From Paludisphaera rhizosphaerae (GTDB taxonomy: Bacteria > Planctomycetota > Planctomycetia > Isosphaerales > Isosphaeraceae): a DNA stretch of 64,000 bases. Shown here one piece after another: positions 264 through 50,981 of this stretch. The position numbers and the translations under genes were made by a program. The DNA lies in contig NZ_JAALCR010000007.1 in the NCBI RefSeq assembly GCF_011065895.1, forward strand, positions 124,001 to 188,000, given 5' to 3'. How positions within the stretch are numbered: the first letter of the stretch is position 1; every line of letters starts with the position of its first letter. Under the pieces are notes generated by a model. The model was not told the DNA's origin. It saw nothing but the letters and a program-made list of their open reading frames with translations, and did not search any database.

Positions 264-1247
264 TCACCCGTGGGCCAGCATCTCGCGGGCGAAGAGTGAG
301 GCGCCGAGGACGCCGGCGTCGTCGCCGAGGGTCGCCAGGACGAACTTGATGGTCCGGTTCGGGTCGGTGATGATCTGGCGGCGGGCGGCCTCGGTGACCA
401 TGTCGAGGTAAGGCTGCCCGAGCGCCTGGGTCACGCCGCCGCCGATGACGACGATCTGCGGGCCGAAGACGTTGACCAGGCCCCCCAGGCCCGTCCCGAG
501 GTAGAAGGCCGCGCGTTCGACCTCGCGAACGGCGACCTCGTCCTTGTTGCGGACGGCCTCCGCCAGGTCGCCGCTCTTGAGCCTCCCCTTGCGCTGGATC
601 TTCTCGCCGAGGGGGCAGTCGCGCTTCTTCGACGCCTTGACGAGCCGGTTGGAGATGGCCGTCTTGCTGGCGAGGGCCTCCATGCAGCCCTTGGACCCGC
701 AACCGCAGCGCGGGCCGCCGGCCTTGACGACGACGTGGCCGATCTCGCCGGCGTTGTTGGTCGAGCCGCCGACGATCCGGCCCCCCTGGATCAGGCAGCC
801 GCCGATCCCCGTGCCGACGAACGCGGCGATGACGTCCGAATACCCCCGCGCCGCGCCCAGCATGAACTCGCCGTAGCCGCCGACGCGGACGTCGTTGTTG
901 ACCTTCACCGGCACGCCGAGCGCCTTGGAGAGGTCGGGCCCCAGGGCGAAGTTCTTGACGTTCATGTTGGCGCTGTAGAGGATCACGCCGGCGTCGGCGT
1001 CGAGCGGCCCCGGGGACCCGACGCCCGCCGCGGCGACGTCCGAGCGCGAGAGCCGGGCCTCGGCGAGCGCCTCGTCGATGCAGTCGAGCATCGTCTTGAG
1101 GATCGCCTCCGCCCCTTCCTTGGCCGGCGTGTTCCGCTTGCCCCGGCCGAGGATTTTGTGGTCGGCCGCGACCACGCCCGCCATGATCTTCGTGCCCCCG
1201 AGATCGACGCCGATCACCGGAGGCCCGCCCCCGTGCCCTTCCGCCAT
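264..1247 (-). CDS. ROK family sugar kinase (glucokinase-like)
   Basis: A 327-residue ROK protein that probably phosphorylates glucose or a related hexose with ATP in the cytoplasm. The N-terminus has the phosphate-binding DLGGTK motif (VIGVDLGGTKIMAGVV), the middle has GTGIGGCLIQGG, and the ROK zinc signature is present as CGCGSKGCMEAL. Length fits the family (300-330 aa). There is no extra N-terminal winged helix, so it is an enzyme rather than a ROK repressor. I chose ATG 1245-1247 because it lies just before the conserved strand; the frame stays open 20 codons further upstream without family similarity. The substrate is not deducible from sequence alone. Confidence 0.88.
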   Translation of the reverse strand: MAEGHGGGPPVIGVDLGGTKIMAGVVAADHKILGRGKRNTPAKEGAEAILKTMLDCIDEALAEARLSRSDVAAAGVGSPGPLDADAGVILYSANMNVKNFALGPDLSKALGVPVKVNNDVRVGGYGEFMLGAARGYSDVIAAFVGTGIGGCLIQGGRIVGGSTNNAGEIGHVVVKAGGPRCGCGSKGCMEALASKTAISNRLVKASKKRDCPLGEKIQRKGRLKSGDLAEAVRNKDEVAVREVERAAFYLGTGLGGLVNVFGPQIVVIGGGVTQALGQPYLDMVTEAARRQIITDPNRTIKFVLATLGDDAGVLGASLFAREMLAHG

Positions 1248-1345
1248 TGGGATGCGCCCCTGGGTTGAATTGCGACCGCGGCCTGTCACCGCCTGAGTCG
1301 TCCGCACATTCTAGCGGACGAGCCGTCGTCGCGTAAGCCGGGGCT

Positions 1346-3208
1346 TTAGGAAGAAGGGGTCGCCCCGGCGAGGATCTCGTCCAGCTCGGCGGCGTCGACG
1401 GTCTCCTGTTCCAGCAGGCGGTCGACCAGGCGGTCGAGCGCGTCGCGGCGGTCTTCCAGGATGCGGCGGGCCTTGGTCATGGACTCGTCGACGATCCGGC
1501 GGACTTCCAGGTCGATCTCGCGGGCGGTCTGCTCGCTGTAGCCGCGGTCGGGGGTTGAGCCGCCGCGGGGGGAGTCGCCGCGGTCGGGCGCGTAGCGGAG
1601 GCGGCCCACGACGGGACTCATGCCGAAGTCCAGCACCATCCGCGAGGCGATCTCGGTCGCCCGGCTGAGGTCGCTGGAGCAGCCGTCGGACGGCTCGCCC
1701 AGCACAATCTCCTCGGCGAGCGTCCCGCCCAGCAGGCCGCAGATCGCATTCTCCAGCGCCGTGCGGGTGTGGAGGAAACGGTCGTCCTCGGGCCGGTACA
1801 TCGTGTACCCCAGCGCCGCCGATCCCCGGCCGATGATCGTCACCTTGTGGACGGGATCGGTCTGGGGGAGGCTCCGCGCCACCAGGGCGTGGCCCGATTC
1901 GTGGACGGCGATCCTTCGCTTCTCGTCGGCGCGGAGCAGCCGCTGACGCTTCTCCGGACCGGCGATGAGGCGTTCGACGCCGTCCTCAAACTCGGCTCTT
2001 CCCACGCAGTCCTTCCCTCGGCGGGCGGCCAGAAGCGCGGCCTCATTCACCAGGTTGGCCAGATCGGCCCCGGCGAAGCCGGAGGTCATCGCGGCGATGT
2101 GGCGGAGGCTCAAACCGTCGGCCAGCGGGACGGTCCGGGCGTGGACCTGGAGGATCTGCTCGCGGCCCACGAGGTCCGGGCGGTCGACGACCACCTGGCG
2201 GTCGAACCGGCCGGGACGCACCAGCGCGGGGTCGAGCGTTTCCGGGCGGTTGGTGGCGGCCAGCAGAATCACGCCGCGGTCGGAGTCGAAGCCGTCCATC
2301 TCGACGAGGAGCTGGTTGAGAGTCTGGTCGCGCTCGTCGTGGCCGCCGGAGCCCCCCGAGCCCCGGGCCTTGCCGATGGCGTCCAGCTCGTCGATGAAGA
2401 TCAACGAGGGCGCCTTGGCGTGGGCCTTCGCGAACAGGCTGCGGACCCTCGACGCGCCGACGCCGACGAACAGCTCGACGAAATCCGAGCCCGAGAGCGA
2501 GAAGAACGGCACGCCGGCCTCGCCCGCCACCGCGCGGGCCAGCAGGGTTTTGCCCGTGCCGGGAGGACCCACCAGCAGCACGCCCTTGGGGATCCGCCCA
2601 CCCAGCGTCTGAAACTTGCCCGGAGTGCGGAGGAAGTCGACGACCTCGCGCAGTTCGTCGACGACCTCGTCGTGGCCGGCGACGCAATCAAAGGTCACCC
2701 GGCGCTCGCCCTCGTCGTAGACCCTGGCCTTGCTCTTGCTGAAGGCCAGAGCGGAGCCGAGCCCCCCCGAACGGGCGAAGACCAGCGACAGGGCGGCGAT
2801 CATCACCAGGAACATCGCCGTGGGGACGATCATCGCCCAGGCGGGCGACGGGACCGGCTCGGCGTCGTAGTCGCCGCCGGGGACGTGAGCCTCCAGCAAG
2901 CGGATCAGGTCCTGGTCGTGCTCCATCCCCAGCCGCGAAACCCGGTACGACGAGCCCGTTGCGAGCGGGGGCGACGCCGCCAGGCGGCCCTCGATCTCCG
3001 ACGGCCCAACGCGCGCCGACGCCACGCGGCCTTCCGTCAACAGCTTGCGGAAGCGGCCGTAGGAAAGATCCTCCACCGGCGTGCGAAACGCCGCCAGCGG
3101 GTACAGAAGGGCCGCCAACCCCAGCGCGACGGTCGCCGCCAGCAGGCCCAGGTTGCGACGTCCTCGACGGGTGCGGTGCGAGAGCGAGAAGCGGTTCATA
3201 GTGCTCAC
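1346..3208 (-). CDS. ftsH: FtsH-type ATP-dependent zinc metalloprotease
   Basis: A membrane-anchored AAA protease for quality control of membrane and regulatory proteins. Two transmembrane segments (about residues 19-40 and 122-145) flank a short periplasmic domain. The AAA domain follows, with Walker A GPPGTGKT at 214-221, Walker [12 protein letters not shown] and the second region of homology with RPGRFDRQV. The zinc site HESGH is at 436-440, and a later [11 protein letters not shown] supplies the usual third acidic ligand. The C-terminus is a helical peptidase domain. At 620 aa it is normal length. A GTG at 3208 opens the frame; ATG at 3199 is an equally good start and neither has a clear ribosome site. 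Planctomycetes usually carry several FtsH paralogues; which one this is cannot be told. Confidence 0.93.
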
Positions 3209-3245
3209 GGTGTGGCGTCGTCGGGTGTTACTTACAGTCAGGTCG

Positions 3246-5165
3246 TCAACTCACGGGGGCGATCTTACCCGGCCCCCGCAGCGGGTCGACGCCCGGCTGG
3301 GGCTGGGGGCGAGGCGTGCGCGGCAGGTGCGGGAACGACGGTTGAGCTTCAATCCGACGGGCCTTGGAGAGGTCGACCCGGTCGTCGGTCAGGTTCACTT
3401 CGTAGCGCTGGTTCCCGGCCAACTGCATGGGGATTCGGACGGTGAACGTGCTCCCCCGGCCCAGTTGGCTCCGGAGGTGGACTTCGCCGCCGAGGAGCCG
3501 GGCGAGTTCGCGGACGATCGACAGTCCCAGGCCGGTCCCCTGGTGCTCGCGGGTCAGGACGTCGTCGTTGCGGCCGGGCGCCTTCGCCTGGCGGAACTTC
3601 TCGAAGATGGCCTCACGCTCGTCCTCGGCGATGCCGATGCCGGTGTCCTCGACCTCCAGGACGACGGACCGGCCCTCGGTCCGGGCCCGGAGCGTGACCC
3701 GGCCTCCTTCGGGGGTGAATTTGATGGCGTTGGAGAGGAGGTTGTAGAGGATCTGGCGGATCTTCCCCGCGTCCTGGCGGAGCAGCGGGATCGCCTCGTC
3801 GAGCCGGCATTCCAGGACCACGTCCTTGCGGTCGGCCATGGGTCGGGTGAGGTTCGTGAGCGCCTCGCAGACGTCGCGGATCGAGAAGTCCTCGCCGCGG
3901 ACCTCCATCTTACCGCTCTCGATCTTGGCCAGGTCCAGGATGTCGTTGATCATCCCCAGCAGCATCTTGCCGGAGGTCTGGATGTTCCCCACGTACCGCT
4001 GCTGGCGGTCGTTCAGGTTGGAGTTGCCGTTGAGGACCTCGGAAAAGCCGATGATCGAGTTCAACGGCGTGCGCAGCTCGTGGCTCATGGTGGCGAGGAA
4101 GTCGCTCTTGATGCGGTTCATCTCGTAGAGCGCCATGTTCGCCTGGGCCAGTTCGTCAACCTTGTGGTCGAGGTCGTTGTTCACGTCGCGCAACTCCTGC
4201 TGCATGGCGACCAGGTTGTGGAGCATGCGGTTGAACGCGTGCGAGAGGTCCTCGAACTCGTCGCCGGTCTGGATCTGGCTGCGGATGTTCAGCCGACCGG
4301 CGGCGATGGCGTCGGAGACGTCCCGAAGGTGCTTGACCGGCTTGACGATCACGTAGCGGACGATCATCGCCGAGGCCAGGATCGCCAGCACGGTCGTCAC
4401 CAGGGCGGCGGCGATCAGAACGGCCCGGTTGTTGTTGATCTTCTGCTGGATCTGGTCCATCGGCACCCGGACGACGACCGCGCCGGCGATATCCCCCGCC
4501 TTGACGGGGATGTTGAGCTTCCCATCCGGCGCGGGCCGCCAGAGGTGGCCGTCGATGTGGACCTTGCCCCCCTCGAAGGAGTCGATCGCCGCATCGTCGC
4601 GACTGTGGCAGTCCATCAGGCAGGTCGGCTTGAACGTCACGGCCTGGATGTACTGGTATTCCGGCTTCTTGCTCTCGCGATTGGTGACGACCCGGTCTTC
4701 CCACATCCGCGTGCCGTCCGCGAACGTATACGGGTTGGGCCGGATTTTGCCCGCCTTGACGGCCGCTTCCTCGTCGGCCGAGGCCTTGAGGAACCGCGCC
4801 AACGAGGCGGTCTCGAACTCGTCCTGGGGGTTCTTGGACTTGTCCTTGTCGGTGTAGGGCCGGATCACCCGGGCGTCGACGTTGGGAAGGTCGTCGGGGG
4901 TTGGGTTGAGGTCGCCCCACAGGGTGTCGAGGATGGATTCGAAGAGGTAGTTGCCCAGTTTCTTCGAGTGGATGTTCATCAGCGTGGGCTTGATGAGCAT
5001 CCGGGCCGTCTGGGTCGTCTGGTTCTTGACCAGATTCTCCGTCTTGATGCCGTAGAGCAGGAAGCTGCCGACGACGAGCAAGAACAGCCCCAGCCCGAAG
5101 ATGAAGCGGCACTTCCGCTCCAGGCTGGTCTCGCCGAGCAGGTGCTTGAAGCTGCGATAGGACAC
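3246..5165 (-). CDS. Membrane sensor histidine kinase with DUF3365-like haem-type sensor domain
   Basis: A 639-residue two-component sensor. TM1 spans about residues 20-42. The extracytoplasmic region contains [13 protein letters not shown] with Cys182, Cys186 and His187, a CX3CH motif suggesting covalent haem as in Tll0287/DUF3365-type sensors. TM2 is near residues 250-272, followed by a HAMP linker and a short coiled coil. The HisKA box [18 protein letters not shown] carries the phospho-His. The ATPase domain has the N box [13 protein letters not shown], the G1 box [10 protein letters not shown] and the G2 box [12 protein letters not shown]. No response regulator is adjacent in this window, so the partner is unknown. 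The C-terminal 40 residues are proline-rich and look disordered. A redox or gas signal is inferred from the haem motif only. Confidence 0.9.
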
Positions 5166-5422
5166 CGGTCAGGTCCCTCTACCAGGCTTCGGGCCTCCGC
5201 CCGCGGCGGTCGCATCCGCAGCCGAGCCGTCCCGTGCATCGCTTCCGAGCGTCCATCCATCGCCGAGGTCGTCGCGAGAGGAATATCCAACCTAATCAAA
5301 ACCGCCGTTCCTGGCCAGTGCGAGATCCGGCCCCTGGACTTCCCACTCTCGGAGCCTATGCTGGGCGACAGAGGTGCACGGCTCTCCACCAGACCGGCCC
5401 CGGGCCGGAGGACGACACGACC

Positions 5423-6685
5423 ATGAAGCCCTCGCGACGCACGATCCTTCGGACGGCCCTCGGCGCGGCGGCGGCCCCGGCGCTCGGCGGGCGGGGCGAG
5501 GCTCAGGAATCCCCTCGGGTCTCGGTCGAGCGTCTTCGCCAGGTCGCGGAAACCCCGGTGCTCCGGGTCGAGGCGATCGACCGACCCGTGGAGATCGCCT
5601 CGCTGGACCTCCTCCGGCGCGGGCGGGAGTACCTCGTCCGGGCTCGGTCGAAGGACGGGGCCGAGGGCTACTCCGTCGCCAACTCCATGCACATGGTCCA
5701 CACGTACCCGATCTTCCTCAATCGGGTCGCCCCGTTCTTCAAGGGGAAGGACGCCCGGCAGTTGGAGCCCCTGCTCTGGGAGCTTTACCGCCACGACGAC
5801 AACTACAAATACCAGGGACTCGCCCTCTGGGTCTGCACGGCGGCCGCCGAATTCGCCGTGCTCGACCTGCTGGGGAAGGTCTCCGGCCGGTCGGTCGCCG
5901 ACCTGCTCGGGGGCCTGAAGCGGACCGAGATCGACGTCTACCGCGCCAGCGGCACGCGGGGAAACACGCCCGAGCAGGAGGTGGCCGACCTCAAGAAGAT
6001 CGTCGCCGAGAGTGGGGCGCGGGCGTTGAAGTTCCGCCTGGGGGGCCGGATGAGCCGCAACGCCGACTTCCCCCCGGATCGCACCGTCCGGCTGATCCCG
6101 ATGGTCCGCGAAGCCTTCGGCCCCGGCATGACCCTGTACGCGGACTCCAACAGCTCGTACGGCGTCCCCGAAGCCATCCGCATCGGCCGGATCATGGAGG
6201 AGTATAACTACGCCTTCTACGAGGAGCCCTGCCGCTTCGACCACCTGGAAGAGACCAAGGCCGTCGCCGACGCCCTGCGAATCCCGATCGCCTGGGGCGA
6301 GCAGGAATTCAGCGAAGAGGGCTTCCTCTGGATGATCGCCAATCGCGGCGTGGAGATCGTCCAGCCCGACCTGCACTACCACGGCGGCTTCATCCGCTCG
6401 ATGCGAGTCGCGCGGATGGCCCACGAGGCCGGCCTGCTCTGCACGCCTCACATGTCGGGCTCGGGCCTGGGCTACCTGGACGCCACCTACTTCGCCGCCT
6501 GCATCCCGAACCCCGTCCCCTTCACCGAGTACAAGGGCTCAGCCGCCGTCCCCGTCAGCAGCGAGACCTCGCCCCTCAAGGTGACCGACGGGCGGGTCAA
6601 AATCCCCACCGGCCCCGGCTTCGGCATCACCATCGACCCGACGTACCTCCGCGAGACGATCCCGGTGAAGACGACGGGGGGATGA
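5423..6685 (+). CDS. Mandelate racemase/muconate lactonizing enzyme family protein, exported
   Basis: A 420-residue enolase-superfamily enzyme. The start at ATG 5423 gives a twin-arginine-like leader, KPSRRTILRTALGAAAAPALGG, so export is likely. The capping domain is followed by the barrel with Lys203-x-Arg205 (ALKFRL), the metal ligands Asp241 (YADSNSSY), Glu267/268 (YEEPC) and Glu293 (WGEQEF), and the general acid/base His343 (CTPHMSGSG). This set fits MR-subgroup acid sugar dehydratases or racemases that abstract the proton alpha to a carboxylate. It is divergent from the kinase gene at 5165, with about 257 bp between them. The exact substrate cannot be assigned. Confidence 0.85.
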   Translation: MKPSRRTILRTALGAAAAPALGGRGEAQESPRVSVERLRQVAETPVLRVEAIDRPVEIASLDLLRRGREYLVRARSKDGAEGYSVANSMHMVHTYPIFLNRVAPFFKGKDARQLEPLLWELYRHDDNYKYQGLALWVCTAAAEFAVLDLLGKVSGRSVADLLGGLKRTEIDVYRASGTRGNTPEQEVADLKKIVAESGARALKFRLGGRMSRNADFPPDRTVRLIPMVREAFGPGMTLYADSNSSYGVPEAIRIGRIMEEYNYAFYEEPCRFDHLEETKAVADALRIPIAWGEQEFSEEGFLWMIANRGVEIVQPDLHYHGGFIRSMRVARMAHEAGLLCTPHMSGSGLGYLDATYFAACIPNPVPFTEYKGSAAVPVSSETSPLKVTDGRVKIPTGPGFGITIDPTYLRETIPVKTTGG

Positions 6686-6732
6686 AGGTCGCGCCGCCAG
6701 GCGCCTTCGTCCCTCCCGATCCGATCCACAAC

Positions 6733-6784
6733 GGCCTTCCCCCCTCGCGGGGGAAGGTGGCCCGAAGGGCCGGATGAGGGGGGA
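6733..6784 (-). repeat. REP-like intergenic palindrome, copy 1 (inverted orientation)
   Basis: About 52 bases that read, on the minus strand, as CCCCTCATCCGGCCC followed by TTCGGGCCACCTTC and a C-run/G-run hairpin. The same block recurs at 7195, 51070 and 53925, here in opposite orientation. It lies between genes and is best seen as a dispersed repetitive extragenic palindrome. Confidence 0.7.
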
Positions 6785-6935
6785 CCGGTTCCGCGTTCAG
6801 AGCAGTCGTGGGGTGCGCGTCCGACGCAGTCGTTCACTGGCCCACAAGGAGGATGCCCAGTCGCCTTCGAGCCGGAGACGGTTCGAGTCGACGCCGTGGG
6901 CCACGCGGGGCGAGGCTCTGCTCGGGGAGGGTCCT

Positions 6936-7187
6936 TTGGAAAGTATCTCTCGCTTCATCGTGGGGCCGTTGTTCGTCCTCGGCGGCCTGTGGTTTCTCGC
7001 CATTCCGTTTGCCTTCGCCGCCACGACCTTCGGCGACCGCGAAGTTCCACCGGGTTGGGAGGAATACTTCGGCAAGACGTTCGAAGGCGCCCTTTCGGCG
7101 ATAGCTATAGGCCTCCTCATGGTCATCATCGGCCTATGCTGGGCGTTGGGTTGGCCTTACTCCTCGGACCGCGAAAGCCGCCTCTAG
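6936..7187 (+). CDS. Small two-helix membrane protein, function unknown
   Basis: I do not recognise this gene. From a TTG at 6936, preceded by a GGGGAGGG ribosome site, it encodes 83 residues with two hydrophobic stretches: FIVGPLFVLGGLWFLAIPF and GALSAIAIGLLMVIIGLCWAL. These are separated by a charged loop containing EVPPGWEEYFGKTFEG. An ATG at 6774 is in frame, but the residues in between are arginine-rich and pass close to the repeat at 6733, so I prefer the shorter form. It sits alone between two REP-like repeats (6733 and 7195). About 250 bases upstream of it contain no gene other than the repeat. Confidence 0.45.
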   Translation: MESISRFIVGPLFVLGGLWFLAIPFAFAATTFGDREVPPGWEEYFGKTFEGALSAIAIGLLMVIIGLCWALGWPYSSDRESRL

Positions 7188-7194
7188 GTCGTGG

Positions 7195-7247
7195 CCCCCT
7201 CATCCGGCCCTTTGGGCCACCTTCTCCCACGAGGGGAGAAGGGAGGG
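7195..7247 (+). repeat. REP-like intergenic palindrome, copy 2
   Basis: The block CCCCCTCATCCGGCCC, then TTTGGGCCACCTTCTCCC and GAGGGGAGAAGG forms two nested hairpins. It is a near copy of 53925-53975, including the trailing GGGAGG..TTG..CAGGCCCG segment, which suggests the repeat unit extends slightly further. Confidence 0.7.
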
Positions 7248-7288
7248 TTGGCCCAGGCCCGCGAACGTGCTTCTTGAACGTGCCCCTC

Positions 7289-8488
7289 TCACTCCGGCAG
7301 CCACGAGGCCGGGATGCGGGCGAGGGTCAGGCGGTCGTAGGGCTTTCCCTTGGCGTCGGGACCGACTTCGCGGCTGCGCTCGTAGAGGCAGAGGATGGTG
7401 CCGTCGGGAAGGACGGCGAGGTCGCTGTAGGCGCTCGGGCCGGGTTCGAGCGTCTTGACCAGCGGCCAGGTCGCGCCGGAGTCGCGGCTCACCTTGATCG
7501 ACAGGTTCTTGCGGTCCTTCCATTCCTTGGGCATGGGTGAGCCCGCCGGGATCGGCGTCTTGTGGGGCTGGGCGAAGATGAGTCGGTCCGGGCCGACGCC
7601 CGCCGAGGCCGGCAGGCGGACGATGCTCCCCATGCAGATGGGCTCGGCGAGTTCCTTGACGAACTCGGGCTTCGTCCAGCCGGTCGCGCCGTCGGGGCTG
7701 ATCGTGACCAGCCGGCGCAGCGAGGGGCCCTCGTTGCGGACGTTGAGCATCACGCGGCCGTCGGCGAGTTGGACGACGACGGTCTCGTTGGGGTCGTCGG
7801 TTTCGGGAGTGTCGGGCGCGGCGATGTCGCCGCGCCGCCAGGTCTTGCCGCCGTCGTCGCTATAGATCGTGGCGGCGACCGACGGATGGTGCTGGTTGGC
7901 CCCCGTCGAGGTCGACAACCAAACGGCGACCACCAACCGGCCGTTCGCAAGCTGGATTCCGTGCCCCGGTCCGGTGGCGAGGACCTTCCAGTCGTACTCA
8001 GGCCGGAAGGCGTCGAACGTGGCCGTGACGTCGACGGGCGTGGAGAACGTCCGGCCGTCGTCGTCGCTCTTCATATAAAAGCATCGGCCGTATTCGACGC
8101 AGTAGAGAAAGTGAACGGCGCCCGAGCGATCGACGATCGCCACGGGATTGTTGACCGTCCGCACGCCCTGCTCCGCATGGCTCTTGGGCGCCACGGGGTT
8201 GGGCGGCACGCTCGCCTCGTTGTGGACGATCTGCGTCTGCGGGCTCCAGGTCTTGCCGCCGTCCTCGCTGCGGCGGAGGAAGACGTCGATGTCCGACCAG
8301 TCGCCGCCGGACTTGCGAGCCTCGCAGTAGGCCAGCACCGATCCCTTCGCGGTGACGACGACGCCGGGGATGCGGTACATCACGTAGCCGTCGCGTCCCG
8401 CTTCAAACAGGTCGATCTTCTCGACCTCCCCCGCCGAGGCCGACGCCATCCAGGCCCCCGCAATCACCGCCGCAAACAACCGCCTCAT
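7289..8488 (-). CDS. Secreted exo-alpha-sialidase (GH33, BNR/Asp-box propeller)
   Basis: A 399-residue secreted glycosidase predicted to release terminal sialic acids. ATG 8486-8488 follows a GGGAGG ribosome site and gives a Sec signal peptide (MRRLFAAVIAGAWMASASAG). The arginine-triad motif appears as YRIPGVV, followed by EARKSGGDWSDIDVF. At least four Asp boxes are visible (SEDGGKTW, SDDDGRTF, SDDGGKTW, SRDSGATW). The C-terminal AYSDLAVLPDGTILCLYE carries the usual catalytic tyrosine region. Upstream of this start the frame runs into the low-GC nuclease region, so longer starts are unlikely. Substrate could be another sugar acid; the fold is secure. Confidence 0.9.
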   Translation of the reverse strand: MRRLFAAVIAGAWMASASAGEVEKIDLFEAGRDGYVMYRIPGVVVTAKGSVLAYCEARKSGGDWSDIDVFLRRSEDGGKTWSPQTQIVHNEASVPPNPVAPKSHAEQGVRTVNNPVAIVDRSGAVHFLYCVEYGRCFYMKSDDDGRTFSTPVDVTATFDAFRPEYDWKVLATGPGHGIQLANGRLVVAVWLSTSTGANQHHPSVAATIYSDDGGKTWRRGDIAAPDTPETDDPNETVVVQLADGRVMLNVRNEGPSLRRLVTISPDGATGWTKPEFVKELAEPICMGSIVRLPASAGVGPDRLIFAQPHKTPIPAGSPMPKEWKDRKNLSIKVSRDSGATWPLVKTLEPGPSAYSDLAVLPDGTILCLYERSREVGPDAKGKPYDRLTLARIPASWLPE

Positions 8489-8593: not shown

Positions 8594-10192
8594 CTACACC
8601 TCGCCGTTACACAATTTACTCAACATATTGCCGATTAAACCAAGGCGAGCCTGAACAAAATCTGAGTATGTAGCTGTGCTATAATCGAAGCTCGCAGGAC
8701 TGGGAAGCAAATTAGAGGCGAAGACCGAGTCCGCATGAGCCCCAAGAGCAAGAGCACAACGCGGCAGATACGATTTAGGATCGGCGGAACCGACTCGCTT
8801 ATTCTCGGAGGCAGACAGAATACATATATTGGCATTCGCATTATGTTCGCCTGGCGCATCGATCGATCTTAGATGCGCCCTAGGATATACATGGTGAAAT
8901 TCCTTTTGATTAAACGCGGACAAAGCCTCACTAATGTCGATCGCGGCTCCATTGGTCACGTTCTTTGGATTCAAGAGCGCAAGAGCCAGGACGAAGGCTC
9001 GTGATCGTGAGTTGTTACTCCGAAAAACACCCCGCTCCCAAGCCTCATCTTTTGGAACCCCTCCAAACTCGTCTGGCGACCCCTTCCGGTTCACCACAAA
9101 GTCGTGTATCAAATCCAAATCACTGGAAACAACCGAATCGGAAGCGCCTCGATATCGCTCATTCAAGGCGGATCGCCAAAACCACTGGCGCACACGAACA
9201 ACCTGATCAGGACTGAGATTGGGCTGTTTGGCGGTCACGTAAGTTAAAACCACCGCAAGAGCCTCATAGGGCAAAAAGTCCCAGCTGTAAACGCGGAATT
9301 CTGTCGATAGCAAGTCTACCGATTTCAGCACGGCGGCCTGCGCCCTAGACACTAATTCCGTCATGTCGGACTTCGGCAATTTGTCCAAGGAAAAAATCTG
9401 GGCGCGTTTGACGCCTCGGCATTGGATGGCACTCAAGCACTTCAACACAGTGCCGCCTTCAATATCGTCAAACCCTTTAGGAACAAGCGCGCCCTGAATT
9501 TGCTCGACCTGTTCATTGAGATCGAAACTGCGAGTCCAAGTCGCAGCAGCCATAAGATCAAATGTCGACAATTTCGTGCCAGAGCTATTAACCCGTTCAA
9601 ATATCGGGCAAACTTCGTCAACCGTCAGATCTTTGAGCGTAACGACCGGAATTCGATAGTTAGTCAAAATACCAGCGATTGCGTCAAATCGCTCGTTCAG
9701 CTCCTTGCCTCGGGGATGAGTCAATAGCGCAGCTCTAAAATTCAACATGGCGGTAAACACGTATAGATGTCGCAACGGAAACACATGCACGAGAGGATTT
9801 TTAGGAAGCCTAACAAACTCTTCTTTTTCGAGATCGTAGCCCGCAGCAAACCCGGGATCTGTAGGCTCTGCTCCCAAACATGAGTAGATAACCGTCAGCC
9901 TCTGCTGTCCATCCAGAACATAATCAGTCGGATCAACATCATCGGTATCAGGCAAACTAAAGTCGCCAATATTCCTCTCTACTCGCATTTTATCTTTGGT
10001 CGTCCAAATCAACAGGCTTCCGACCGGGTAATTATTTGCCATGCTATCCAGCAAATCGAGAGCCTGCTGATCTTTCCACACAAACTTCCTCTGAAACTGA
10101 GGGATCTTCACCTCACCTTTTCGAATCTCTTCGCAAAGCGTGCTCAAGCTTTTCGTGGTCGTATCCAATCGGCCTTTCAGGTTCTTCTGCAT
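8594..10192 (-). CDS. Single-chain GmrSD-like DUF262/HNH (DUF1524) nuclease, probable defence gene
   Basis: A 531-residue protein. The N-terminal DUF262 domain has KIPQFQRKFVW at about 30-40 and the diagnostic DGQQRLTVIY at 94-103 (ParB-like NTPase motif). The C-terminal region has FHHVYPRAHL followed by ANICILSASENKRVG, the His-Asn pattern of DUF1524 HNH nucleases. In the type IV restriction system GmrSD these two domains recognise and cut modified phage DNA, and fused forms are common. It stands alone: no methylase or partner is adjacent. Base composition is visibly more AT-rich than both neighbours, with different codon use (TTA, AAT, ATA). Both suggest recent transfer. ATG 10192 was chosen because the DUF262 similarity starts a few residues later. 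Anti-phage role is inferred. Confidence 0.85.
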   Translation of the reverse strand: MQKNLKGRLDTTTKSLSTLCEEIRKGEVKIPQFQRKFVWKDQQALDLLDSMANNYPVGSLLIWTTKDKMRVERNIGDFSLPDTDDVDPTDYVLDGQQRLTVIYSCLGAEPTDPGFAAGYDLEKEEFVRLPKNPLVHVFPLRHLYVFTAMLNFRAALLTHPRGKELNERFDAIAGILTNYRIPVVTLKDLTVDEVCPIFERVNSSGTKLSTFDLMAAATWTRSFDLNEQVEQIQGALVPKGFDDIEGGTVLKCLSAIQCRGVKRAQIFSLDKLPKSDMTELVSRAQAAVLKSVDLLSTEFRVYSWDFLPYEALAVVLTYVTAKQPNLSPDQVVRVRQWFWRSALNERYRGASDSVVSSDLDLIHDFVVNRKGSPDEFGGVPKDEAWERGVFRSNNSRSRAFVLALALLNPKNVTNGAAIDISEALSAFNQKEFHHVYPRAHLRSIDAPGEHNANANICILSASENKRVGSADPKSYLPRCALALGAHADSVFASNLLPSPASFDYSTATYSDFVQARLGLIGNMLSKLCNGEV

Positions 10193-10633
10193 CTCAAAGC
10201 CCCCACTTAAACCCGCTTGTTCTCGCCTTGGCGACCCACTGTCGAACAAATCGAATCAATGCAGCGCTCGCGAACACTAATTTTCAAGCAAGCAGAACGC
10301 GACGGCTCCCCCAGCCATGCACCTCGGGAACAGCGGCAGAGAAACACTACCCCGACTCTTGCGAGGCAATCGGCGAACGCCACTTGCTTTCTCTTACAAT
10401 ACCAAGGAATCAGCCCCGCTGTCCAAATTCCCACGGGATATTTAGTCGGCAATCTCAAAGATTTGCCGACGAGTCCAATAAAAACCGTTCTTGAACTTTA
10501 CCGAGAGTTGCGAGAGCCAGAACCATCGTCTCTCCTGGGCCTCTCAATCCGTATCTCTTCCGTAGCTTTCGCCTCGCTTTTGGAATACGCTCGTCGATGC
10601 CGCGAGATTTCCCCACGCCCTGGGAGTCGTGCG
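10193..10633. other. AT-richer gene-free stretch with a hairpin at 10445-10470
   Basis: This 441-base gap between the divergent nuclease gene and the esterase gene carries no convincing gene. Open frames here are extensions of neighbours without family similarity. It contains a perfect 8-bp inverted repeat GTCGGCAA/TTGCCGAC (10445-10452 and 10463-10470, loop 10 nt), possibly an operator or transcript hairpin. The low G+C continues from the nuclease gene, so the right boundary of the acquired segment is probably near 10600. Confidence 0.5.
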
Positions 10634-47655: not shown

Positions 47656-47703
47656 ATGAAAAAAGGCCCTGCGCCGCTTTCATGGCGCAAGGCCTTTTTT
47701 CAT
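47656..47703. terminator. Bidirectional rho-independent terminator
   Basis: AAAAAAGGCC-C-TGCGCC pairs with GGCGCA-AGGCCTTTTTT around the loop GCTTTCAT, giving a long GC stem framed by A-run and T-run. It lies 14 bases after the FG-GAP stop on the plus strand and 95 bases after the L27-fusion stop on the minus strand, so it can end both convergent transcripts. Confidence 0.9.
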
Positions 47704-47797: not shown

Positions 47798-48523
47798 TCA
47801 GTCTTGAGACAAGATCGCCCCGAACCCAAACTCGTCCAGGTCTTCGGGAAGCCCAGCGTCGAATAGCCTCACATCGATGTAGTCTCTTAGAATTGTCTCA
47901 AGCGACTGAGATTCCCGTTCGACATGCTGAACGTCTAAGGTCAATAATTCTGCCAATGAATCGGGGTACGTCTTCGCATAGGAGAGGAATTCCGAGGCGA
48001 CTTCGATACCCAAAGATTCCAAGACCTTCGCTACGATCGGAGGTACCAAGAGTTGGTCTGATCGCACGATAGCGCCAAACGCAGGTTGGGTGCGCTGCAA
48101 TATGGCGTCAGGTTGAATTGTCAAATCTGTGTATGGCTGCATGCCGGCCGCTCCTGTGCTTTTATTGACAAGGCGGAGCAAAAATGAACCAACGATCTCG
48201 GGATGTAGCGAGGGTTTTCCCCGTTGCCGTGCATGTGCCGGATCAGCAATCGCCACGCCGTCTCCGAGGTCTGGAACCTCTTGAGCTTTCACATTGATTC
48301 GGCGTCCTCGAAGGTCAAAGTAAACTTTTCCTCGGATTTTCGAATGGATTGTCCAATCCCGGCCGTAGTAAACATTCTTTCCCGCCAACCATTTCGTCCC
48401 ACGTTGTCGGCAAATTATACTGCCCGCCTTAGCGACTTGCCCACCGAACAGCTTGATGCCAAGCATTTGTGGATTAGAATCACGTCCGTTCCTACTCGAT
48501 CCTTGCCCCTTCTTGTGCGCCAT
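47798..48523 (-). CDS. Ribosomal protein L27 domain fused to a C-terminal extension of unknown function
   Basis: 241 residues. Residues 1-78 are a full L27 domain: [19 protein letters not shown], then [20 protein letters not shown], then [13 protein letters not shown] and [14 protein letters not shown]. In the ribosome the L27 N-terminal tail reaches the peptidyl transferase centre, and that tail is intact here. Ordinary bL27 ends at about 85-90 residues; this one continues for some 160 more with no domain I recognise (includes [35 protein letters not shown] and an acidic end [10 protein letters not shown]). It is a paralogue in an AT-richer patch, 140 bases after a papain-family protease gene on the same strand. 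Function unknown; ribosome-directed regulation or defence is a guess. Confidence 0.85.
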
Positions 48524-48663
48524 CCCAATCCCCCCAGATTAACATGGGCGGCCTTTCGCCACATGTCAACGAGATTCCATGAGAGTAAGTCTAGAGGCCC
48601 GCCGCTACACCCCGCACAATCCCACCAACCCCACCAATCTCTCGCTCCTTGCCCCCTCCAGAT

Positions 48664-49497
48664 TCAAGCCTCCACGATCGTTTGGGATCGTGGCTCAATC
48701 GGCGTTGGATCGGACGATTCCGCACGTACCACATAAGCCATGCATCGTGTATATTTAGACACATAGTCCGCTGAGATGGTCCCATATCCAACCGGAAGTC
48801 GTATCCCACGAACGTATGAATTGCGACCGAACTTATTGCCCCAGGAATTTCTAAGGACGAACCAACCTTTTCCTGGGGCCTTGGGATCCTTGCTGTAACC
48901 AACCAACGTGACAGCGTGCCCTACAGAGGTGGGCTGTGAATTGCTTGGAGGTTCCATCACACGACCTTTTTCTTTGGCAATAGGATTCGTCCATCCAGTT
49001 TTTCCACTAGCCTTGTTCACGAACACTGGAAGGCTCACCGCAACCGCACCATATTTGTGTATAGCTTCAATGACACTGTCGACCTTGGGATTGGAGACAT
49101 AGATAGCATTCGCGAATCTCCGTCTCTGCGCGGCGGCGTCCACCAGCCCATTAGGGCGCAAAGGGAAGATCTCATGCGTGCAGTCGTCTTCGCCAGGACC
49201 CGCTTCAAACTGGTATGGCCACTCCCAATGAAAACAGAACCCATACTTCCTTAGAGCTTCGACTGCATCGCTCAGCCTAGCTCCCGAGCAGTGGCTCCTG
49301 CCGTCGACAACCTTCGTAGCCCACCACAGAAATTGTTCGGACTCTAAATCAGGATCTCTCGGTTCGGGATTGTCAGGACACAATGCGAATTCGTGACATG
49401 CTGCAAGTGCGAAAGCCACGCAAGTTGGACGTCTGCCTTGGTTTTTGGCGGGCCAATCCACCGGCATCGTTACTGCTCCAATAGTCTCTGAGAACAC
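48664..49497 (-). CDS. Papain-family (C1) cysteine protease without signal or propeptide
   Basis: 277 residues. NQGRRPTCVAFALAACHEF holds the oxyanion Gln20 and catalytic Cys26, VGHAVTLVGY holds His194, and LRNSWGNKFG holds Asn217. All three catalytic residues are thus present. The mature-like fold starts almost at residue 1 (MPVDWPAKNQ), there is no signal peptide and no inhibitory propeptide, so it should be cytosolic and controlled in another way. A GTG at 49497 is the only start after the upstream in-frame stop; ATG 49467 is possible. Lower G+C than neighbours. The gene lies directly upstream of the L27-fusion gene. Confidence 0.87.
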   Translation of the reverse strand: MFSETIGAVTMPVDWPAKNQGRRPTCVAFALAACHEFALCPDNPEPRDPDLESEQFLWWATKVVDGRSHCSGARLSDAVEALRKYGFCFHWEWPYQFEAGPGEDDCTHEIFPLRPNGLVDAAAQRRRFANAIYVSNPKVDSVIEAIHKYGAVAVSLPVFVNKASGKTGWTNPIAKEKGRVMEPPSNSQPTSVGHAVTLVGYSKDPKAPGKGWFVLRNSWGNKFGRNSYVRGIRLPVGYGTISADYVSKYTRCMAYVVRAESSDPTPIEPRSQTIVEA

Positions 49498-50099: not shown

Positions 50100-50408
50100 A
50101 TGTCCACGGACGAGATCGAGACCATTCTCGCCAACTGGATCGAGCAAGCTCTTTCGTCGAGCGGCAGCCTCCCGGAGGGAGTTTCACCGGCGTCCTGGGT
50201 CGCCGGTCAGTTCGCCGACTGGTGGCGAGGGCGAGCCGGGGAGGCGATGAACGACGCCGAAATCGCCGTGTCGGCCGCCCTCAAGGAATTGACGCGGCTC
50301 AGTGGATGGGATTCCTTTGGCGAGGCGATGCACGAGATGGCCCATGTCCGCGACGCTCTGGGCGAGTTGCGAGGCCTCATGCGGCTGCCCAATGAGTCCG
50401 ACGTCTGA
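50100..50408 (+). CDS. Small acidic helical protein, function unknown
   Basis: 102 residues, mostly helical and acidic: STDEIETILANWIEQALSS, then PASWVAGQFADWWRGRAGEA, with AALKELTRLSGWDSFGEAMHEMAHVRDALGELRGLM at the end. No signal, no membrane segment, no domain recognised. It precedes the restriction-fold-like gene by 33 bases on the same strand, so the two are probably one transcript and the product may be a partner or inhibitor. Its own ribosome site is weak. Confidence 0.55.
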   Translation: MSTDEIETILANWIEQALSSSGSLPEGVSPASWVAGQFADWWRGRAGEAMNDAEIAVSAALKELTRLSGWDSFGEAMHEMAHVRDALGELRGLMRLPNESDV

Positions 50409-50441
50409 GCTTTCACATCGAAAATATGGAGGGAGAGCGAC

Positions 50442-50981
50442 GTGGCCCTGCTCGCCGAAAGCCTCGTCGAAGAATGGCTCAACCGAAACGGCTACTTCAC
50501 CATTCGCGGCGTCAAGCAGGGTCTTGGTGAGATGGACTTGCTCGCGGTGCGTCCGCAGGCTGAGGGCGTGATCGGCTGGCACGTCGAGGTGACGGTGAGC
50601 TTCCGGCCCATCGGCTACATCGCACGCGAGCCGGCCGGTAGTCCCGGCGGAAAAAGCAGCTACGTACGCAAGCGCGACTCTGAGCAGATCAGGGCCTGCG
50701 CCCGCACATGGATCGACGCCAAGTTCCGCTCACCTGCCAAGGTTCGGCTGCGGACCGAACTTTGGCCTGGCGTCGCGTGGTCCTTTCATCTCATTCATGG
50801 GGCCGTCCGCTATACCGATGAACTGGAGGCGTTTGCCGCCGAGGGCGTCACCTGCCACCCGTTCTACGAATTGCTCTCCGACTTGTCGAAACCGGGTGAG
50901 CGCTCGTTCTCCGGCTCGGCGGGGGGAGATCTCGCGGAGATCATCGGCTACTACAAATCGGTTCAAGCGCCGATCGGCTGA
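50442..50981 (+). CDS. Restriction-endonuclease-fold-like protein, function unknown
   Basis: 179 residues from GTG 50442 after a GGAGGGAG site. The N-terminal part reads VEEWLNRNGYFTIRGVKQGLGEMDLLAVRP and then WHVEVTVSFRPIGYI. This has the layout of the PD-(D/E)xK nuclease core: a helix, an Asp in MDLLAV, and an E-x-x strand (VEVTV). The usual Lys is Thr, so activity is doubtful. The rest has alpha/beta character (KVRLRTELWPGVAWSFHLIHG) without a known domain. Paired with the small helical protein upstream. Assignment is by pattern only. Confidence 0.55.
   Translation: MALLAESLVEEWLNRNGYFTIRGVKQGLGEMDLLAVRPQAEGVIGWHVEVTVSFRPIGYIAREPAGSPGGKSSYVRKRDSEQIRACARTWIDAKFRSPAKVRLRTELWPGVAWSFHLIHGAVRYTDELEAFAAEGVTCHPFYELLSDLSKPGERSFSGSAGGDLAEIIGYYKSVQAPIG

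Follow-up and report, generated by a model that had tools for sequence, protein, structure and literature searches.

A protease of the papain family, a fusion protein that begins with a ribosomal protein bL27 domain and the conserved C-terminal domain with which this fusion ends occur together in two families of planctomycetes. One copy of the gene pair lies in the window, the 64 000-nucleotide stretch of DNA from Paludisphaera rhizosphaerae that was analysed here, and the other in Gemmata sp. IIL30, a member of another family; these are the only two genomes in which the pair was found. Taken together, the two loci point to a small ribosome-directed system that has not been described before. 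In the reading that we favour, tentatively and somewhat short of calling it probable, the genes form a rare and probably horizontally moved module, in which a papain-like protease free of export signals acts with a dedicated partner that is addressed to the ribosome by its L27 domain; ribosome binding, cleavage and any role in defence are what we infer.

In such a module the L27 domain would serve as an address tag, allowing the partner to take the place of ordinary bL27 on the host 50S subunit, or to mimic that subunit, and the conserved C-terminal domain may be the part that the protease binds, is restrained by or cleaves. Proteolysis would be coupled to the state of the ribosome, and the device would most plausibly serve growth arrest, conflict or the response to stress. 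It is uncommon for a ribosomal protein to belong to an accessory system, and a fusion that occupied the 50S subunit close to the peptidyl-transferase centre, with a protease attached as its partner, would link proteolysis directly to translation.

Organization of the gene pair

The sequence-only reading of this DNA had proposed a C1 protease with the catalytic set Gln20, Cys26, His194 and Asn217 and with neither signal peptide nor propeptide, followed 140 bp downstream on the same strand by a complete L27 domain fused to about 160 residues without a recognisable domain, and the analysis bears out each of these points (Table 1). The protease, P0002, scores above the Pfam cut-off for PF00112 (46.7 versus 20.7), has its best PDB match in 3ois (1.4e-13) and carries all four catalytic residues, which are also kept in the Gemmata protease, P0004. 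The ATG at 49467 (codon 11 of the open reading frame) is its more likely start, giving a protein of 267 aa, since GGAG lies 8 nt before this codon and the position agrees with the start of the Gemmata relative. P0002 begins just before the Gln motif, which leaves no room for a signal peptide or propeptide; the signal peptide and inhibitory propeptide of secreted C1 enzymes are absent from both P0002 and P0004.

The fusion, P0001, is matched by PF01016 (Ribosomal_L27) over residues 2-75 (1.4e-30) and falls just under the NCBIfam L27 equivalog cut-off (89.5 versus 90.35 bits). Its L27 domain begins with MAHKK, without an N-terminal extension, and the N-terminal tail of the domain is intact. The gaps between the two genes, of 140 bp in the window and 189 bp in Gemmata, do not prove a single transcript. 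Two terminator-like sites were found in the stretch against a shuffle mean of 1.9, a number not above that of the shuffles.

Table 1. Features of the gene pair in the window
Feature	Position	Strand	Evidence or remark
Leaderless C1 (papain-family) protease, P0002	48664..49497	minus	PF00112, 5.5e-12
L27 fusion protein, P0001, 241 aa	47798..48523	minus	Homologous 377-aa fusion in Gemmata sp. IIL30
bL27 domain of P0001, residues 1-78, by sequence of the type of the window's own family	48290..48523	minus	
Linker of P0001, residues 79-129	48137..48289	minus	Alignment with the Gemmata fusion, which has a long Q/E/K-rich stretch there
Conserved C-terminal domain of P0001, residues 130-241, module-specific	47801..48136	minus	Match to G559, E = 6.5e-8; 35% identity
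Gap from protease to fusion, exactly 140 bp	48524..48663	minus	G-rich ribosome-binding-like run directly before the fusion ATG (by eye)
Terminator-like hairpin, 20 pairs	47656..47703	minus	Between the module and the converging neighbour gene

Recurrence of the pair in Gemmata

The tail of the fusion was searched alone, with the protease left out of the query, against overlapping samples of 392 genomes of the phylum, 45 of the window's family and 397 of the class. Only the window's own genome was found in the phylum sample and, at E <= 0.001, in the family sample (next best match 0.042), while the class sample held one strong match besides the window, in G559. This genome is Gemmata sp. IIL30 (HG799463.1), described in the available part of PMC4672568 as the type strain of Gemmata massiliana; the protease taken from that record is identical. 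The Gemmata fusion, P0003, has 377 aa, starts with GTG and joins its L27 domain, through a linker rich in Q, E and K, to the C-terminal domain known from P0001 (35% identity). Located 189 bp before it, in the same order and orientation as in the window, is P0004, a leaderless C1 protease of 273 aa with about 31% identity to P0002. Pfam gives no C1 match for P0004 up to E = 0.1, and the protein was assigned to C1 by its pairwise match to P0002 (31%, 101 bits) and its aligned catalytic residues. Since the protease played no part in the search that found the Gemmata fusion, the pairing is independently confirmed.

Eight weaker matches in the class sample (E 0.007-0.044) were taken as chance; the one that was inspected, in G447, lies inside a 410-aa frame, which we take to be SbcD-like. 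No further member was found with a two-sequence tail profile among 95 genomes of the Gemmata family, and none by tail scans of genome_contigs and viral_contigs, which are blunt: the genome_contigs scan with the window tail missed the Gemmata relative, though HG799463.1 is in that collection. A tblastn search of the whole of P0001 against plasmids and phages returned L27 matches, which in the best 20 of 63 plasmid rows and in 15 of 15 phage rows end by residue 116, before the conserved tail, and the Gemmata tail had no match in phage or plasmid records. As to whether L27 fusions always neighbour a C1 protease across planctomycetes, which the sequence-only reading had asked, the pair recurs in another family but is not general, the tail having been found in only two genomes across these searches.

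Transposase-like genes, recognised by eye, flank the Gemmata pair (locus L106) at a distance of a few kb on either side. HTH_23/HTH_29 matches were obtained for the downstream gene and no Pfam match for the upstream open reading frame (2016-2378); these flanks are in keeping with a mobile module.

The C-terminal domain

Residues 79-241 of P0001 (163 aa) have no Pfam match up to E = 10 (HMMER filters on), and the tail has no significant match in PHROGs (best E 0.31) or in the PDB (best 0.19); against PADLOC, P0001 gives only a weak JetC match (E = 0.072). On these non-significant results the tail was not taken for a known domain. By eye, the tail resembles the helix-hairpin-helix modules of Saprospiraceae-type L27 proteins and the N-terminal parts of other C1 proteases, a likeness kept only as a lead because the hhalign probabilities against these two module types are 1.6% and 2.1% (pairwise P 0.03 and 0.02). 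AlphaFold models of the fusion and of the tail, predicted without relatives, are of low confidence (mean pLDDT 32 and 37). A short disordered end, which the sequence-only reading had named, together with the fusion being the only rpmA of the organism, as a case that would refute its proposal, is not what was found: the tail is a domain common to the window and Gemmata fusions.

Host matching of the L27 part and a shared altered patch

A tree of 71 L27 rows was built from 30 sequences of the window's family, 15 of the Gemmata family (locus L231 of this family was missed by the motif), ten from other planctomycetes, 14 from a pattern scan and the two fusions. P0001 groups with 25 of the 30 L27s of its own family (96/84) and P0003 with eight of the 15 of the Gemmata family (99/96), both on long branches that the tree tool flags as unsure. 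Forcing the two fusions into one clade costs 38 log units, a result that is suggestive and falls short of a firm rejection in the AU test (p = 0.059). Pairwise identities run the same way: the L27 domain of P0001 is 78% identical at the median and 83% at best to those of its own family, and 54% at the median to Gemmata-family L27s; that of P0003 is 65-72% identical (median to best) to its own family and 53% to the window's; and the two fusion domains are 51% identical to each other. At 21 family-diagnostic positions P0001 has the residue of its own family at 19 and that of the other family at none, and P0003 at 13 and two, respectively. Judged by these comparisons, the L27 domain of each fusion is of the type of its own host family. 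Tail and protease are therefore a common heritage, and it is the L27 part that looks separately captured or homogenised in each. The L27 domain of P0001 is 79% identical in protein sequence to the host's ordinary L27 and 31% identical at codon position 3, which suggests constraint.

Against this host-matched background, each fusion carries residues unseen in the ordinary L27s of its family: L46, Y52, Y53, H60, K62, R64, L71 and R72 in P0001 (30 own-family sequences) and Y52, C53, T54, Y57, H60, A62 and D72 in P0003 (15 Gemmata-family sequences). Five of these private positions overlap (eight and seven of 78; hypergeometric 5e-5, or 0.004 within residues 46-78), and two of them, Tyr52 and His60, hold identical residues. 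Residue 60 is Phe or Tyr in 30/30 own-family and 15/15 Gemmata-family L27s and His in both fusions; residue 62 is Leu in 30/30 and 12/15, and is Lys in P0001 and Ala in P0003. Residues 1-45, which in bL27 include the tail reaching toward the peptidyl-transferase centre, hold no family-foreign residue in either fusion. Left out one at a time, single ordinary L27s show up to six private residues in the window's family and 11 in the Gemmata family, so that it is the place and agreement of the private residues that count and not their number. Both the host matching and the shared altered patch are new beyond the sequence-only reading.

An L27 pattern of Tyr or Phe at residue 52 with His60 matches, among 111 loci, only those of the two fusions (seven loci). 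A scan of genome_contigs returned at least 118 stretches, of which 80 loci, mostly Saprospiraceae-type, were listed, and the pattern also occurs in L27s of Verrucomicrobia, Bacteroidota and a Dehalococcoidia contig; as this sample was chosen by the pattern itself, it shows only that the state is tolerated. Among the 80 listed loci, a C1 protease match at E <= 0.01 occurs at the Gemmata locus only and an L21 motif lies near L27 in six; a C1 pattern scan of viral_contigs gave no match.

The Tyr52/His60 patch, common to both fusions against both host families, may mark a face that is functionally unlike ordinary L27. A bolder account, to which we give limited credence, is that of a mobile protease module which, on moving, either captures its L27 part afresh from the host rpmA or has it homogenised with that gene, the same surface patch then being altered, so that the partner is built into or imitates the host ribosome. 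If true, such a module would stand for a new kind of conflict or stress system that targets the ribosome. The host-matched L27 part and the shared Tyr52/His60 change offer simple tests, and the conserved tail a handle for finding further members in metagenomes.

The same residues bear on an unlikely alternative, target-replacement immunity, in which the protease would act as a toxin against ordinary bL27 or its surroundings, and the fusion as an inhibitor or as a stand-in that resists cleavage. Papain-like enzymes prefer hydrophobic residues at P2. Resistance would then have come from losing Phe/Tyr60 and Leu62 in parallel, and both fusions have indeed lost these residues (His60 with Lys62 or Ala62); their L27 parts are moreover host-matched, as a functional replacement would need. 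Resistance as the meaning of the change is weakened by the occurrence of His60 in L27s of other phyla (in the sample chosen by that pattern), and the alternative leaves the conserved tail of about 110 aa unexplained.

Relation to ordinary and extended L27 proteins

P0001 is not the genome's own obg-adjacent rpmA. A separate, normal rpmA elsewhere in the genome had been anticipated, and an ordinary L27 of 95 aa is present on contig C30, adjoining an obg-like open reading frame (recognised as obg by eye). An L27 match was obtained in 42 of the 45 genomes of the window's family, with two matches in the window's genome only, and in 368/392 genomes of the phylum sample, four of which were counted with two. 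Gemmata sp. IIL30 likewise has an ordinary 89-aa L27 besides its fusion, and each of 15 further genomes from its family has a single L27. In the other phylum genomes with two L27 matches (G190, G292 and G313) the matches lie in frames of 89-96 aa, in a 123-aa frame (G190) or, partial and weak, in a 1183-aa frame; fusions of the present kind are ruled out there by length and by the tail search.

Extended L27 proteins are found elsewhere. The solved ribosomal chain 6z1p_AA has 237 aa with L27 at 33-108, and among the 80 listed pattern loci 52 (the Gemmata fusion included) have a frame of at least 200 aa and 43 show, after the L27 domain, a GIG (helix-hairpin-helix-type) motif. From such long-tailed chains and loci it follows that the fusion architecture can be compatible with ribosome assembly. 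At loci L112-L191, from Saprospiraceae and related Bacteroidota, L27 often has a long C-terminal extension ending in a DDLKxxEGIGPKI motif. This bL27 type is like the window fusion in joining an L27 domain to a C-terminal added domain, but differs in that the motif is plain there, that no C1 protease similarity was found in the loci covered and that the window tail gives an hhalign probability of 1.6% against the added domain.

One protease that acts on L27 is Prp (phage-related ribosomal protease), an enzyme of family C108 and clan CR, which cuts an N-terminal L27 extension according to the available part of PMC9405229; it is also the only L27-tied protease that the literature searches brought up. 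The module resembles the Prp-L27 system in that a cysteine protease is functionally tied to L27. It differs in having a papain-family enzyme, an L27 that starts at MAHKK and an added part that is C-terminal; neither a C108-family protease nor an N-terminal L27 extension is present.

By analogy with Prp, some of the ribosomes might instead use the fusion as an alternative L27, which the protease would mature or remove. The intact L27 N-terminal tail and the existence of extended L27s would suit such a specialised ribosome, and paralogous ribosomal proteins, such as bL31A/B of E. coli, are discussed as a source of heterogeneous ribosomes in the available part of PMC7363858. We regard this possibility as still less likely than target replacement, as the fusion has no N-terminal extension to remove, and its very patchy occurrence, low third-position GC in the window and, in Gemmata, transposase-like flanks look accessory and not housekeeping.

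Comparison with conflict systems

In Microcystis, a toxin-antitoxin pair is under the control of the cysteine protease encoded next to it, the orthocaspase MaOC1 (PMC7935541, in the part available). The likeness lies in a cysteine protease gene adjoining a small module under its regulation, and the difference, within the same text, in MaOC1 being a caspase homologue with a ParE/ParD-like partner and no ribosomal protein. The available parts of two surveys of bacterial conflict systems (PMC7159879, PMC8195603) describe peptidase domains, including a papain-fold one, as intracellular conflict components. Most of the peptidases described there resemble trypsin or caspases and are linked to NTPases or EAD adaptors, neither of which was recognised at the module, and the term L27 has no match in either text. 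Among the titles and beginnings of abstracts listed from the open-licence literature, none concerned the pairing of an L27 fusion with a protease of the papain family.

At E <= 0.001, homologues of P0002 were found in 18/392 genomes of the phylum and in 9/45 of the family (the window's own included); the former count makes a chance adjacency of protease and fusion unlikely. In a tree of 18 C1 rows, from which ten loci with partial or broken matches (L056-L061 and L066-L069) were left out, P0002 and P0004 join with support of 94/96, slightly below the level that the tool stars. Judged by raw identity, P0002 is no closer to P0004 (30-31%) than to two other relatives, L044 (34%) and L045 (31%), and no L27 neighbour was noticed at L044 or L045. 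The ORF lists of three further relatives (L087, L088 and L090) likewise revealed no L27 gene, and the window tail has no match better than E 0.78 in ten C1-relative loci.

At one of these relatives, L088 (G155, 794-8266), a C1 enzyme with a long C-terminal part is followed by three short predicted membrane or coiled-coil open reading frames and by two caspase-like genes (by eye). This looks like a separate peptidase conflict locus, and the position of the enzyme upstream of the two caspase-like genes indicates that C1 enzymes of this branch are found in loci of the conflict type.

A decoy or guard would fit such company: the fusion would mimic host L27 as bait for a ribosome-attacking factor of an invader, and the protease, released on contact, would be the alarm or executioner. 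Host-matched mimicry with an altered patch, the accessory distribution and the more distant relative L088 upstream of two caspase-like genes (by eye) agree with this idea. It is nevertheless improbable, given that neither gene has a significant PADLOC match in either genome (none for P0002 up to E = 1, and none for P0003 or P0004 up to 0.01) and that no phage or viral-contig relative of the tail was found. Least of all, and very improbably, the pair may be a coincidence or in decay, a captured rpmA copy drifting beside an unrelated protease, which the window copy taken by itself would allow, the other 44 family genomes showing neither such a fusion nor the tail, but which is disfavoured by the Gemmata locus, where a second family has the pair in this order and with this tail domain, and by open frames and an L27 protein sequence kept while third codon positions diverged.

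Base composition and neighbourhood

The two genes lie, as the sequence-only reading had noted, in a lower-GC patch of the window. The GC content per kb at 48-50 kb is 0.526 and 0.567, against 0.62-0.74 elsewhere in the window except at 8-11 kb, and third-position GC is 0.51-0.54 in the module versus 0.94-0.97 in two flanking genes. This low third-position GC suggests import.

Beside the module, on the plus strand at 50100-50981, are a small open reading frame and a UPF0102/YraN-like one, with intermediate third-position GC (0.80 and 0.77). The frame at 50442-50981, the nuclease-like neighbour of the sequence-only reading, has only a sub-threshold UPF0102 match (E = 0.027). In five congeners, the 10-11-kb stretches upstream of the VIT-domain gene are without the module, the VCBS-type neighbour and the open reading frames of 50.1-51.0 kb (domain names of the neighbours assigned by eye), and because all of these are missing together, an empty site cannot be read in the genus.

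A second low-GC patch of the window (0.49-0.59 per kb) holds, on the minus strand at 8594-10249, a gene for a DUF262/GmrSD_N protein (PF03235, 4.7e-29). The same protein matches PADLOC PDC-M55C (2.4e-63) and its gene is a candidate anti-phage defence gene.
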